This document shows, piece after piece, positions 21,647 through 25,658 of a stretch of DNA of 27,788 bases (position 1 is the stretch's first letter; the number at the start of each line of letters is the position of its first letter). Source of the stretch: a virus; the IMG/VR virus record IMGVR_UViG_3300033571_003732, positions 1 through 27,788 of that record; one strand, written 5' to 3'. A program made the position numbers and the translations under genes. The notes below the pieces were generated by a model. That model did not search any database. It had not been told where the DNA came from and saw only the letters and a program-made list of their open reading frames with translations.

Positions 21647-22417
21647 ATGAAGCCTGCAATCATAGACGAAGCATTCCTTGAAGCAGAAGCATCCAAGTAT
21701 TTGACGAGAAAAGAACGAAAACAAAAGAAGAGAGCTAAGGGCACAGGTTATCGACAACCTGTACTACCAAGCTTGTGTCGTGTATCCCCTAAGACAGCCG
21801 CACAGCGACTAGTCGTCGAAGCATTCAATTCAGATAAGAATATCATTCTACATGGATGCGCAGGAACTGGTAAGACGTTCCTTGCGCTATATCTTGCGCT
21901 CAACGCTATGCTTGAAGGTGATGCACCACGTCCAGTGGTTATCCTTCGTAGCGTTGTTCCTACTCGTGATATTGGATTTCTGCCAGGATCGTCTAAAGAT
22001 AAAGCAGCAGTTTACGAAGCACCCTATCAAGGTATTGTTTCGGAAGTCTGCGATAAGTCTTATGACTGGATGAAACAGAATGGCTATATCCATTTCGATA
22101 TTACTTCTTTCCTTCGCGGCTTGACATTCCGTGATAACATTATTATAATTGATGAGTGTCAGAATCTAAGTGACCACGAAATCCATACGGTCATGACTCG
22201 CGTGGGCGAGGGTTGTAGAGTTATCTTCTGTGGTGACTTCACTCAGAAGGACTACACGCGCGAAGGATCTGGTATGAACAACCTGCTCAAGATTGCAGAG
22301 AAAATGAAATCTTTCGAGATCGTGAAGTTTACTAAGGAAGACGTCGTTCGCTCAGGCTTTGTACGCGACTATATACTAACGCGAACAGAACTTGAAGAAC
22401 GTGGAATGATAACTTGA
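21647..22417 (+). CDS. phoH: PhoH-like ATPase
   Basis: 256 aa from ATG 21647 (GGAG five bases upstream); ATG 21614 would add 11 residues and is not excluded. After a basic N-terminal tail, GCAGTGKT (about 70-77) is Walker A and IIIIDECQN (about 165-173) is Walker B, with the typical PhoH segments ILRSVVPTRDIGFLPGS and RVIFCGDFTQKD. PhoH proteins are P-loop NTPases with RNA-related roles in bacteria; their function in phage infection is unsettled although they are widespread in marine phages. It overlaps the exonuclease by four bases (TTGA). A consensus promoter lookalike lies inside the gene at 22121-22149. Confidence 0.9.
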   Translation: MKPAIIDEAFLEAEASKYLTRKERKQKKRAKGTGYRQPVLPSLCRVSPKTAAQRLVVEAFNSDKNIILHGCAGTGKTFLALYLALNAMLEGDAPRPVVILRSVVPTRDIGFLPGSSKDKAAVYEAPYQGIVSEVCDKSYDWMKQNGYIHFDITSFLRGLTFRDNIIIIDECQNLSDHEIHTVMTRVGEGCRVIFCGDFTQKDYTREGSGMNNLLKIAEKMKSFEIVKFTKEDVVRSGFVRDYILTRTELEERGMIT

Positions 22418-23109
22418 GATTTGATCATAGTCCTTATATAGATTTACCTAGAGCAAAACAAATCAACACACCATCGGGCAGACGTTATCAGACGCCCGAT
22501 GGTAATGTGTATCCATCCATCACTACGGTTCTCGGCGATCAGCCAGAAAAGAAAAAAGCGCTCGCTGAGTGGCGTGCTCGTGTTGGTGAAGCAGAAGCCA
22601 ACAAGATAGCAACTCAGTCTGCTCGTCGTGGAACCAATCTCCATAATCTATTAGAATCATATATTCAAGGCGACAATCATTATCTAAAAGATGTTATGCC
22701 ATCGACGATTGATCGTTTTCGTCTAGTTCAGAAATGCTTAGATAAAAATCTACAGATGGTCTATGCTTCAGAAACGCCAATGTATTCGGATATCCTGCGT
22801 ATCGCTGGGACTGCGGACTTGATCTGCGAATGGAACGGTGAAGTAACAGTCGTTGACTTCAAAACAGCTCGCAAGATGAAGACGCCAGATATGATCACTG
22901 ACTACTTCTTACAAGCTACTGCATATTCGATCATGTTTGAAGAGCATACTGGCATCGAGTGTCATCACTTTGCCATTCTCATGGTTTCTGACGAAGGCGA
23001 GTTCCAAGTATTCTCAGGCAAGCGCAACGACTACGTTCGTCAACTGATTTGTGTAAGAGATCAGTATGAGTGGAGAAAAAGTCTTGACAATCAATCCAAA
23101 ATAGCTTAA
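22414..23109 (+). CDS. RecB-like PD-(D/E)XK exonuclease
   Basis: 231 aa from TTG 22414, coupled to phoH. YPSITTVLG near residue 33 and the RRGTNLHNLLE helix are typical of phage RecB/Cas4-like nucleases (the His binds metal). AGTADLI (about 131-137) and TVVDFKTAR (about 145-153) supply the Asp and D-x-K of the active site, and QATAYS (about 169-174) is the following Q-x-x-x-Y motif. Probably an exonuclease for DNA degradation or recombination. The tmRNA promoter's -35 lies in its final codons. Confidence 0.85.
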   Translation: MRFDHSPYIDLPRAKQINTPSGRRYQTPDGNVYPSITTVLGDQPEKKKALAEWRARVGEAEANKIATQSARRGTNLHNLLESYIQGDNHYLKDVMPSTIDRFRLVQKCLDKNLQMVYASETPMYSDILRIAGTADLICEWNGEVTVVDFKTARKMKTPDMITDYFLQATAYSIMFEEHTGIECHHFAILMVSDEGEFQVFSGKRNDYVRQLICVRDQYEWRKSLDNQSKIA

Positions 23110-23121
23110 TATAAATAATAT
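23094..23121 (+). promoter_or_regulatory. early-type promoter (TTGACAAT ... TAATAT) for the tmRNA
   Basis: TTGACA 23094-23099 then AT, TAATAT 23116-23121, spacer 16. The expected start near 23128 falls just before the acceptor piece of the tmRNA. Confidence 0.7.
23110..23117 (+). promoter_or_regulatory. candidate T4-type late promoter (TATAAATA) for the tmRNA
   Basis: TATAAATA at 23110-23117, with the same TATAAATAAT extension as the box at 548. It overlaps the sigma70-type -10, so the tmRNA could be transcribed both early and late. A chance AT-rich match is possible. Confidence 0.4.
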
Positions 23122-23127
23122 GCTGAG

Positions 23128-23188
23128 GTTGTTGAGACGCATAGAATAGGCGTTTCGGACGGGAGGGCAGTACTCCCCGCCTCCACCA
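23128..23188 (+). ncRNA. tmRNA acceptor piece
   Basis: Predicted mature acceptor RNA of the split tmRNA, ending in encoded CCA at 23186-23188. CGCAT at 23138-23142 could pair with ATGCG at 23318-23322 of the coding piece, a helix that would hold the two RNAs together. The 5' end is set only by the promoter. Confidence 0.75.
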
Positions 23189-23348
23189 CAAGCACAGATA
23201 GACGATGTGAGGGCTATAGAGCGCAATTAGCTTTCATATTCGAGACAAATTTACTCTTGCGGGAGTTATTCTGTGCTTTTGATGGGGGCGAAATAGGTTC
23301 GACGGGATGCAGTAAAGATGCGAAGAGACCGAAAGCAACGTTCTAGAT

Positions 23349-23390
23349 GCAAACGACAATGCACCTATCTCTTACGCTCTAGCAGCCTAA
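23349..23390 (+). other. tmRNA tag reading frame (ANDNAPISYALAA)
   Basis: The resume codon is GCA at 23349 and the frame ends in TAA at 23388-23390. The 13-residue tag starts ANDN, as in alphaproteobacteria, and ends ALAA, the ClpXP-type degradation signal. The middle, APISY, differs from the tags I remember. Confidence 0.88.
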
Positions 23391-23453
23391 GAATGCGTTC
23401 GGGGGACACGTGGAAACAGAAGTCCCCCACTTTCCATACATTTGAGGTTAATC

Positions 23454-23678
23454 ATGTCAGATAATGAAAAGCGTATTCGTTTTGAAGTATTGCAGACTGC
23501 TATCGGTATGATAGATCAGGGTCTATACTGGCGCAGAGAAAACGGCGAGAACGTTACTGCTCCAAATACTTCTGTGTATATTGAAAAAGCAAAAGAGCTA
23601 ATGACTTTTGTTGACGATATGCCTGATCCCACTGTCAAAAGTGTTACCCAATTACTGACAGAACATAGCGGTAAGTAA
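23454..23678 (+). CDS. unknown protein, 74 aa
   Basis: ATG 23454 has GAGG six bases upstream and follows the tmRNA by only about 14 bases; a TTG 23442 start would overlap the tmRNA end. The product (MSDNEKRIRFEVLQTAIGM ...) is helical with no Cys and ends five bases before tRNA-Gln. Probably transcribed with the tmRNA. Family not recognised. Confidence 0.6.
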   Translation: MSDNEKRIRFEVLQTAIGMIDQGLYWRRENGENVTAPNTSVYIEKAKELMTFVDDMPDPTVKSVTQLLTEHSGK

Positions 23679-23964: not shown

Positions 23965-24780
23965 ATGAGCTTCTATGATAATTGTGGAAATAATCAGAGA
24001 CTAAGTTTAATTGCGGGTCCTTGTGTCTTTGAATCCAAGGATCATGCTGTTGATACTGCCGAACAGATCCAAGAAATTTGCGATAGCTTGGATGTCAACT
24101 TCATTTATAAGACCTCTTTCGATAAGGCTAATCGAAGCTCTGCGGATAGTTTCAGAAGTGCAGGCTTCGACGAAGCATATTACGGAATGGAGGCCGTCCG
24201 TGGTAGAGGCATCGAGGTGCTCACGGACGTTCACGATCCGTGGCAATGCGAACAAGTGCAGGCTGATATTATTCAGATCCCTGCGTTTCTTTGCCGCCAG
24301 ACTGACCTTATTCGTGCAGCAGCAGAAAGTGGTAAGCCTGTTAACGTGAAGAAAGGTCAGTTCCTATCCCCATGGGAAATGAGTAATGTGGCAGACAAGC
24401 TAAAGAAGTTTGGCTGTACTAAGTATATGTTTACCGAACGCGGAACAACATTTGGCTATAACAATCTTGTGGTCGATATGCGGTCTCTTGATGTTATGAA
24501 ACATTATACCGACAATGTTGTTATGGATTGTACACACGCTGTACAGTTACCAGGTGGAGCTGGTAAATCATCTAGCGGACAACGCCAATTTGTATCAACC
24601 ATGGCAAGAGCTGCCGTCGGTGTTGGTGTTTCTGCTGTCTTTATTGAAGTCCATAAAGATCCTGACAACGCTCCAAGCGATGGTGCAAATATGTTGCGTA
24701 TGGATAAACTTTGTCCTTTACTTTCTGAGCTTGTTGAGATAGACTATATCGTAAAGAGGAAAATTGTATGGAAGAGCTAA
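23965..24780 (+). CDS. kdsA: 3-deoxy-D-manno-octulosonate-8-phosphate synthase, metal-dependent type
   Basis: 271 aa (E. coli KdsA has 284). KTSFDKANRSS (49-59) is the substrate-binding loop specific to Kdo8P synthases rather than DAHP synthases. Other conserved blocks are LTDVHDPWQ, IQIPAFLCRQTDL, VNVKKGQFLSP, ERGTTFGYNNLVVDM and FIEVHKDPDNAPSDG. IAGPC with Cys20 marks the metal-dependent class; E. coli has Asn there. The other likely metal ligands are the His in DCTHAV, the Glu in FIEVH and the Asp in PSDGAN. The enzyme condenses arabinose-5-phosphate and PEP to Kdo8P for LPS inner core. The catalytic set looks complete, so the host is expected to be Gram-negative. It overlaps the next small gene by 13 bases. 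Confidence 0.93.
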   Translation: MSFYDNCGNNQRLSLIAGPCVFESKDHAVDTAEQIQEICDSLDVNFIYKTSFDKANRSSADSFRSAGFDEAYYGMEAVRGRGIEVLTDVHDPWQCEQVQADIIQIPAFLCRQTDLIRAAAESGKPVNVKKGQFLSPWEMSNVADKLKKFGCTKYMFTERGTTFGYNNLVVDMRSLDVMKHYTDNVVMDCTHAVQLPGGAGKSSSGQRQFVSTMARAAVGVGVSAVFIEVHKDPDNAPSDGANMLRMDKLCPLLSELVEIDYIVKRKIVWKS

Positions 24781-24926
24781 TTGACAAATTTGCCATTCGA
24801 ATTGCACGTGGACCTAATAGCGAGAAGTGGGGCGAATGGAACTCCGAAGAAGAACGAGAGTTTTGGCGAAATATTGTTCGTGAGCTTCTTAGAGAATATC
24901 AGGAGCTAGTAAACAAGAATGGCTAA
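24768..24926 (+). CDS. unknown acidic protein, 52 aa
   Basis: AGAGGA lies seven bases before ATG 24768. The product (MEELIDKFAIRIARGPNSEK ...) is highly charged and helical with three Trp in the middle and an REYQELVNK end. It overlaps kdsA by 13 bases and the cupin gene by eight, which supports it as part of the coupled series. Family unknown. Confidence 0.55.
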   Translation: MEELIDKFAIRIARGPNSEKWGEWNSEEEREFWRNIVRELLREYQELVNKNG

Positions 24927-25422
24927 TATTACAGGCAAGGTGTGGGGGAATACAAGCACACTTATTCAAACTCCACTCGTTGAACTTCACAGAATCAATA
25001 TCAAAGCTGGCTACAAGTGCTCGGAGCATAAGCATGAACACAAATGGAACGGATTCTACGTCGTATCAGGAACCTTGGAAATCCATGTTCGAAAGAATAA
25101 CTATGAGCTCACCGATGTTACTGTTCTCAGAGCAGGTGACTTTACCACTGTGCGTCCTGGCGAGTATCATTGGTTCAGCTCTATCACCGATTGCGTTGCG
25201 TTAGAACTTTACTATCCAGAAACTCTCAGCGAAGACATTGTTCGCAAGAGCGTTGGTGGTCGTGATATCTCTGCGCCGCATGAAACAAAGTCGCCTTGCA
25301 CAAAAGTCTGTACGCTAGATCCGCTGACTGGTAAGTGTTTTGGTTGTGGTCGTACTGCAGAAGAGATTCGCAATTATGGCTTAAACCACGCTAAGACTCT
25401 TTATGAAGGATATGACAAGTGA
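24919..25422 (+). CDS. cupin-DUF1289 fusion protein
   Basis: 167 aa. About 1-110 are a cupin barrel: HKHEHKWNGFYVVSG (about 37-51) is motif 1 with three His, and GDFTTVRPGEYHWF (about 74-87) is motif 2 with the last His. About 125-165 are a DUF1289 zinc-like domain: CTKVCTLDPLTGKCFGCGRT has the four conserved Cys and is followed by EEI. Cupins bind metal and small molecules or sugars; DUF1289 is unknown but common in Proteobacteria. The fusion could link metal-dependent sugar chemistry with a Cys-bound metal. It ends in a GTGA overlap with gene 33. Confidence 0.8.
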   Translation: MANITGKVWGNTSTLIQTPLVELHRINIKAGYKCSEHKHEHKWNGFYVVSGTLEIHVRKNNYELTDVTVLRAGDFTTVRPGEYHWFSSITDCVALELYYPETLSEDIVRKSVGGRDISAPHETKSPCTKVCTLDPLTGKCFGCGRTAEEIRNYGLNHAKTLYEGYDK

Positions 25423-25658
25423 CAGACGCAGTCGTAGCAAGCATCATGAGCTCCAACACATTTGTTTCTATGGTAGAGCTTCGCATCAGCGATCAAGGTA
25501 TGAGCTATCTCGAAGCCATTACTGACGTCTGTGAAAAGACTGGGCTTGAGTTCGAGAACGTGTCTAAGCTCATGACGCCTACGATGCGCAAGTTGCTCGC
25601 AGCAGAAGCAACATCACTAAATCTCCTGAAACGCACTGGATCAAGGTTGCCAATCTAA
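25419..25658 (+). CDS. 33: T4 gp33-like late transcription coactivator
   Basis: 79 aa from GTG 25419. The ISDQGMSYLEAITDVCEKTGLEFENVSKLM segment (about 24-53) and the C-terminal AAEATSLNLLKRTGSRLPI match, from memory, the compact gp33 of cyanophage-type T4 phages. gp33 bridges host RNA polymerase beta flap and the sliding clamp for transcription from TATAAATA promoters with sigma gp55. It lies just upstream of the gene 59-32 block, as in T4. The family is divergent, so confirmation by profile search would be useful. Confidence 0.65.
   Translation: MTDAVVASIMSSNTFVSMVELRISDQGMSYLEAITDVCEKTGLEFENVSKLMTPTMRKLLAAEATSLNLLKRTGSRLPI

Follow-up and report, generated by a model that had tools for sequence, protein, structure and literature searches.

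The window analysed here, a stretch of 27,788 nucleotides that makes up positions 1 to 27,788 of the IMG/VR virus record IMGVR_UViG_3300033571_003732, carries a complete circularly permuted tmRNA gene (ssrA) at 23127-23431 on the plus strand, as located with ARAGORN and Rfam, and the analysis supports a phage-encoded, permuted two-piece tmRNA of the alphaproteobacterial type. tmRNA releases ribosomes that have become stuck and adds a tag to the incomplete proteins on them. Since a two-piece tmRNA has been published in the T4-like phage Melnitz (PMC9004378) and SsrA is annotated in Mosig, the finding as first framed in a preliminary description of the sequence belongs to a known kind. By its predicted RNA structure, however, the phage group of the window is a compact tmRNA class that lost the pseudoknot PK1, and no earlier report of a PK1-less phage tmRNA class was found in the literature searched. 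A wider reading, to which we give roughly even chances, is that phages evolved and keep exchanging a compact PK1-less two-piece tmRNA class of their own, which has phage-specific tags, would perform full trans-translation and would re-label proteins in a way not used by the host.

Organization of the ssrA gene and its locus

The Rfam model alpha_tmRNA (RF01849) matches 23080-23431 with 109.1 bits (E=3.2e-29), and tmRNA_permuted (RF04321), which is defined by the tRNA domain only and has PK1 outside its model, matches 23127-23390 with 107.2 bits (E=2.8e-20); both scores exceed the curated cut-offs of 50 and 47 bits, respectively. ARAGORN likewise calls a permuted tmRNA, at 23096-23481 and with the same tag, ANDNAPISYALAA. 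The borders of the acceptor piece, the intervening segment and the coding piece were mapped via the Rfam alignment, and the features of the locus are as follows.

22414..23109, plus strand: PD-(D/E)XK exonuclease gene (exo), conserved upstream neighbour, its 3' end overlapping the promoter -35 box (phrog_298, 6e-64; PF12705)
23084..23112, plus strand: sigma-70-type promoter, TTGACA (23084-23089), 17-nt spacer and TAATAT (23107-23112) (10/12 consensus match; conservation)
23127..23188, plus strand: acceptor piece (3' tRNA-like half) with the 5' strands of helix P2, the T arm, the 3' strand of the acceptor stem and CCA (Rfam alignment, covariation)
23189..23283, plus strand: intervening segment, 95 nt, with an 8-bp end stem pairing 23190-23197 with 23271-23278 (covariation)
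23284..23330, plus strand: 5' tRNA-like half with the GGGGGCG acceptor strand and the 3' strands of helix P2, last letters GACC (Rfam alignment, covariation)
23331..23348, plus strand: unpaired linker, 18 nt, at the PK1 position, bearing the frame-setting UA ahead of the resume codon (fold prediction, 30 copies)
23349..23390, plus strand: tag reading frame ANDNAPISYALAA and stop (ARAGORN; synonymous-only variation in five scored same-tag copies)
about 23395-23428, plus strand: H-type pseudoknot 3' of the tag, GCGT:ACGT and GGGGGAC:GTCCCCC (covariation)
25419..25658, plus strand: gp33-like gene, downstream T4 core marker (30% identity to Mosig gp33, E=1e-10, a single comparison)

The architecture read from the letters in the preliminary description is thereby borne out, as are two of the checks it had proposed, a match to alpha_tmRNA and an ARAGORN call. 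First, the 3' tRNA-like half, with the terminal letters CGCCTCC-A-CCA, lies ahead of the 5' half, with which the coding piece begins at 23284 and which extends to about 23431 in the Rfam alignment. Next, the two halves are joined by a 7-bp acceptor stem, GGGGGCG/CGCCUCC, that contains the G3-U70 alanine identity pair. Finally, the tag frame, encoded by GCAAACGACAATGCACCTATCTCTTACGCTCTAGCAGCCTAA and translated as ANDNAPISYALAA, is followed by the pseudoknot. The predicted fold of the precursor lies 4.2 sd below shuffles. Elements not noted earlier are the promoter at 23084-23112, helix P2 between the halves, the stem of the intervening segment and the absence of PK1.

Fourteen nt separate the end of the promoter from the acceptor piece. 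Both of its boxes are retained before ssrA in relatives, with varying spacer, and they persist despite different upstream sequence in L047, L051, L052 and L055. Promoter-like matches across the region show no excess over shuffles, so that conservation, rather than the match itself, counts as evidence for a dedicated ssrA promoter, from which the host polymerase would probably transcribe early. A perfect 12/12 sigma-70 match, TTGACA-N17-TATAAT, is located at 22121-22149 within the phoH-like ORF.

The surroundings are those of a T4-like phage, as the preliminary description had recognized. The window encodes gp59, a T4 RNase H-like exonuclease, PhoH, ThyX, a dNMP kinase, the PD-(D/E)XK exonuclease and the gp33-like protein, and gp23, the T4 capsid protein, is encoded on the long contigs (139 and 158 kb) of two relatives. 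A 74-aa ORF after ssrA was considered as gp33 and rejected, as the comparison puts gp33 at 25419-25658. The gene order in the window is exo - ssrA - ... - gp33 - ORF - gp59, in Mosig it is exo - ORF - ssrA - gp33 - thyX - ORF - gp59, and in Melnitz, where gp33 and gp59 were assigned from sequence reading, exo - two ORFs - ssrA - ... - gp33 - gp59; in Cyanophage P-HM2 exo and gp33 are adjacent and a tmRNA was not found. A scan of viral contigs for copies with the upstream exonuclease yielded 20 relatives with exo 71-88% identical, and a permuted ssrA follows exo in all 20, some of them missed by ARAGORN. The two genes are separated in L047 by a radical-SAM ORF some 1.4 kb long. The phage collection contains no close isolate, the DNA matches being short and confined to the tmRNA. 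Metabolic genes near ssrA encode a DAHP/KDO-8-P synthase-like protein (23965-24780) and a cupin-DUF1289 protein (24919-25422), and a 576-aa ORF at 629-2359 begins like a signal peptide and resembles an outer-membrane barrel at its C-terminus, with no PHROGs or Pfam match.

Given this context, there is next to no probability that the window derives from the host or that it covers the edge of a prophage in a host ssrA gene. While the alphaproteobacterial type of the RNA could suggest such an origin, the gene is flanked by phage genes (gp59, gp33-like, PhoH, T4 RNase H-like exonuclease, dNMP kinase), which refute the host-DNA reading, long relatives carry gp23, and the tag DNA occurs in none of 84,980 bacterial and archaeal genomes, with a related pattern that matches 72 viral stretches and none of these genomes. 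A prophage attachment within a host ssrA was likewise rejected, no integrase being present among the ORFs scanned against PHROGs.

Conservation of the RNA and loss of PK1

Selection on the RNA is evident from 30 aligned phage ssrA copies, with the structure taken from the Rfam alignment. The structure is formed in 96.4% of cells, and 22 of the 37 pairs have changes on both sides, as opposed to a mean of 12.1 after shuffling; none of 500 shuffles was as good by any measure. Kinship makes these shuffle counts overstate the significance, whereas controls with slid pairing partners retain the relatedness, and there the pairing falls to 40-49%. Compensatory change is strong in every helix apart from the short P2a, which has one-sided variation only, and P2b is the weakest at 82.5%. 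In the pseudoknot after the tag, 8 of 11 pairs have changes on both sides. The G3-U70 pair is constant in all 30 copies and the other acceptor pairs co-change; as a separate survey of acceptor offsets needed U70 for detection, it is this 30-copy covariation and not the survey counts that provides the evidence for G3-U70. The end stem of the intervening segment covaries in 8/8 pairs (99.2% of cells paired, 0/500 shuffles), which suggests that the segment is kept near the acceptor stem for processing, and by likeness to known permuted tmRNAs it would be removed on maturation. As judged by the covariation, chance is excluded as the source of the structure and the ssrA RNA is almost certainly real and under selection; covariation of aligned sequences proves selection on the RNA, but it leaves unspecified the step that the RNA serves.

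The tag and the bases that precede it are also conserved. The five scored copies of ANDNAPISYALAA are five distinct DNA sequences with synonymous differences only (a sixth copy, L047, was left out of the tag scoring), and among all 13-residue tags the differences fall mostly at third codon positions, 1119 versus 696 and 502. The hydrophobic AA end of the tag is conserved, and the U and A at -5 and -4 of the resume codon, frame-setting positions in E. coli (PMC2481249), are invariant in 30/30 copies. Relative to L038, which lies on the same contig as L028, L053 (6914-6930) lacks 9 nt (TTCTAGATG) and with them the frame-setting bases before the resume codon; a damaged gene, a decoy and a sequencing error are the alternatives for this copy. 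Small deletions in L053 and some other copies might suggest that the phage carries the gene as inert cargo or as the remnant of a host ssrA in decay, yet all 20 relatives carry it with its own promoter and the strong covariation contradicts decay, which makes this explanation very improbable.

Helix P2 and the resume codon lie 16-19 nt apart throughout the 30 aligned copies, this linker is essentially without predicted fold, and no copy of the 30 allows a pseudoknot of even 3+3 bp between P2 and the tag. A hairpin in place of PK1 was considered and rejected (RNAalifold 0.0 kcal/mol). The resume codon lies 62-66 nt from the acceptor start in the class of the window and at 65 nt in the window itself, after exclusion of the values 57, 57 and 67 for L010, L014 and L005 as wrong tag calls; the offset is 78 in Mosig, 82 in Melnitz, 84 in vB_RpoS-V10, and 84-86 in the measured Sinorhizobium, Shinella, Bosea and Microvirga copies. 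The alpha_tmRNA scores are 155-310 bits for bacterial copies as opposed to 109 for the ssrA of the window. Even shorter permuted tmRNAs, with a 34-nt intervening segment and a 9-residue tag, ADENLALAA, at offset 46-47, where PK1 would not fit, were observed in L008, L021 and L033.

PK1 helices are present in most tmRNA sequences, with Oenococcus oeni as a named exception (PMC1168896). A review states that tagging requires PK1, though a small hairpin can substitute for it (PMC3968760). E. coli tmRNA with PK1 swapped for single-stranded RNA still tags (PMC4236655), so that loss of PK1 need not mean loss of function. The role of PK1 is a long-standing question. Laboratory mutants indicate that it can be replaced, and yet it persists in almost every natural tmRNA; as a large phage class of conserved structure, the PK1-less tmRNAs offer material from nature for testing this and perhaps the scaffold of a minimal tmRNA.

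Origin and exchange of the gene

The preliminary description had taken the presence of the gene in a T4-like phage to imply capture from a host. This does not follow directly, as an exact scan of 84,980 bacterial and archaeal genomes found DNA for ANDNAPISYAL (serine as TCN only) in none, and the same exo/gene 33 locus is occupied in Melnitz and Mosig. A shorter pattern, UARAU followed by ANDNAP, occurs in 72 viral stretches and in none of the 84,980 genomes; as it requires A at -2, a position that is U in the alphaproteobacterial consensus of Rfam, the ANDNAPISYAL scan is the cleaner evidence. The negative scans make recent capture from a sampled species unlikely and any host capture old, and together with the locus shared with Melnitz and Mosig they suggest a long residence in T4-like phages. 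The gene may have come from an unsampled host, or it may have been acquired long ago and have diverged since; most simply, this branch of the T4-like phages has a single old ssrA locus that later underwent exchange.

Exchange is indicated within the gene itself. Distances of exo correlate with those of the two tRNA-like halves (Mantel r 0.51 and 0.59) and weakly with those of the intervening segment (0.17), and nearly the same intervening segment occurs in phages with exo just 70-72% identical, from which it follows that parts of the gene were exchanged. The segments of L042, L043, L046 and L050 are 88-100% identical although exo differs by up to 30%, with L009 and L024 as further cases, and on sequence comparison the intervening segment appears to be swapped between the ssrA genes of the L042, L043, L046 and L050 group.

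In L040 (6828-7262; IMGVR_UViG_3300011113_000123, 157,580 bp) the intervening segment measures 489 nt and contains a 144-aa HNH-like ORF (Pfam HNH, 21.1 bits, just below the cut-off of 21.4), which may be a homing endonuclease in an RNA part cut out of the ssrA transcript. L078 (3687-3705), and also L122 and L125, have a segment of only 5 nt (CCGGTCCACCA-TTTAT-GGGCCGG); the L078 gene is matched by Rfam and not called by ARAGORN. Permuted tmRNA genes are also present on the very large viral contigs L102 (338,435 bp) and L104 (296,119 bp), with the compensated acceptor stems GGGCCUG/CAGGUCC and GGGGAUG/CAUCUCC, respectively.

Proposed function and relation to known tmRNAs

Covariation, G3-U70, the tag, the promoter and the presence of the gene in 20/20 relatives together argue that the gene is under selection and most likely serves trans-translation with host SmpB; that it performs trans-translation during infection seems to us quite probable. 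The earlier suggestion that the phage itself rescues stalled ribosomes is probably correct. Neither the window nor any of 18 other phage records, mostly fragments, contained a match to SmpB in a search that was positive in 10 of 14 control genomes; the partner is presumably supplied by the host, whose SmpB must then be shared.

We infer transcription, cleavage, charging, tagging and a benefit to the phage from sequence, along the following lines. Host RNA polymerase would read ssrA, probably early, via the TTGACA-N17-TAATAT promoter, and the fold of the precursor would bring the stem of the intervening segment near the acceptor stem. The segment would then be excised by tRNA-processing nucleases of the host. 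Two RNAs would remain, the acceptor piece (about 60 nt) and the coding piece (about 150 nt), joined by the acceptor stem and helix P2; PK1 has been lost, and the unpaired 16-19 nt linker takes its place. The CCA end would be charged by host AlaRS through G3-U70, and host SmpB and EF-Tu would deliver the tmRNA to stalled ribosomes with broken mRNA, of which a lytic takeover probably yields many. Translation would resume at GCA, four bases past the invariant A, adding (A)ANDNAPISYALAA before the stop, whereby the ribosome would be freed and the peptide marked for ClpXP-type proteases. Some observations count against such a model: nearly all natural tmRNAs keep PK1, and here not even a hairpin is predicted; and a few copies look damaged, as L053 without the 9 nt before its resume codon.

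An improbable alternative is that an abundant phage tmRNA acts as a competitor or decoy, which titrates host SmpB or displaces host tmRNA and thereby weakens or re-programs trans-translation. Such a role has been suggested for the tmRNA of mycobacteriophage DS6A, which consists of the tRNA-like domain only, and a DS6A-like molecule inhibits tmRNA (PMC4131195). The need to share host SmpB, the loss of PK1 and tags that differ from those of sampled hosts would all suit a decoy. However, a decoy could do without a tag, and yet changes in the tag frame are synonymous, its AA end and the frame-setting bases are kept, and the pseudoknot 3' of the tag shows covariation.

Should trans-translation by the phage class instead be complete, PK1 would be dispensable in nature, and proteins rescued during infection would be re-labelled with a tag unused by the host. 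The promoter of its own, a constant position with exo on one side and gene 33 on the other, and a tag absent from sampled bacteria suggest that ribosome rescue is part of the T4-like gene set.

Permuted alpha-type tmRNAs as in the window also exist in Rhodobacter, Ruegeria and Mesorhizobium phages (OP186293, MW677525, MH015255, MT188704), which differ in their gene surroundings and, where measured, in a longer linker (vB_RpoS-V10, 84 nt). Their genes score above the Rfam cut-off at MT188704.1 58735-59021, OP186293.1 3259-3561, MH015255.1 9203-9506 and MW677525.1 32190-32477, regions in which no tmRNA feature is annotated. The tmRNA genes of Bxz1-group mycobacteriophages have the standard one-piece form. 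Phage-encoded tmRNA is shared by the window with the Bxz1 group and with DS6A, of which the latter has the tRNA-like domain alone, unlike the window (PMC4131195). For bacteriophage tmRNAs of any form, 79 unique sequences have been counted (PMC11915505), and the 133 unique tmRNA structures reported from 18,146 phage genomes include 53 two-piece molecules, of which 50 come from marine or aquatic phages (PMC9004378). As phage two-piece tmRNAs have already been reported, current views are not overturned.

The closest counterparts are found in Melnitz and Mosig. Methylophilales phage Melnitz (MZ577095-98; PMC9004378) likewise has a permuted alpha-type two-piece tmRNA between exo and gp33, with a tag of its own that ends in ALAA; however, its exo is only 38% identical to that of the window, and it keeps a region of PK1 length (resume codon at 82 nt versus 65 in the window). 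It has also been reported with a glutamine riboswitch, for which no Rfam match was found at the ssrA of the window. In Pelagibacter phage Mosig (MT647606) a permuted SsrA is likewise annotated between exo and gp33, but with a longer linker (78 nt) and a tag called GEDNFALAA. Finally, the alphaproteobacterial two-piece tmRNAs (RF01849; Sinorhizobium, Shinella, Bosea) resemble the window in gene order, G3-U70, P2, the tag start ANDN and the pseudoknot after the tag, whereas they possess PK1, with an offset of 84-86 nt and scores of 155-310 bits.
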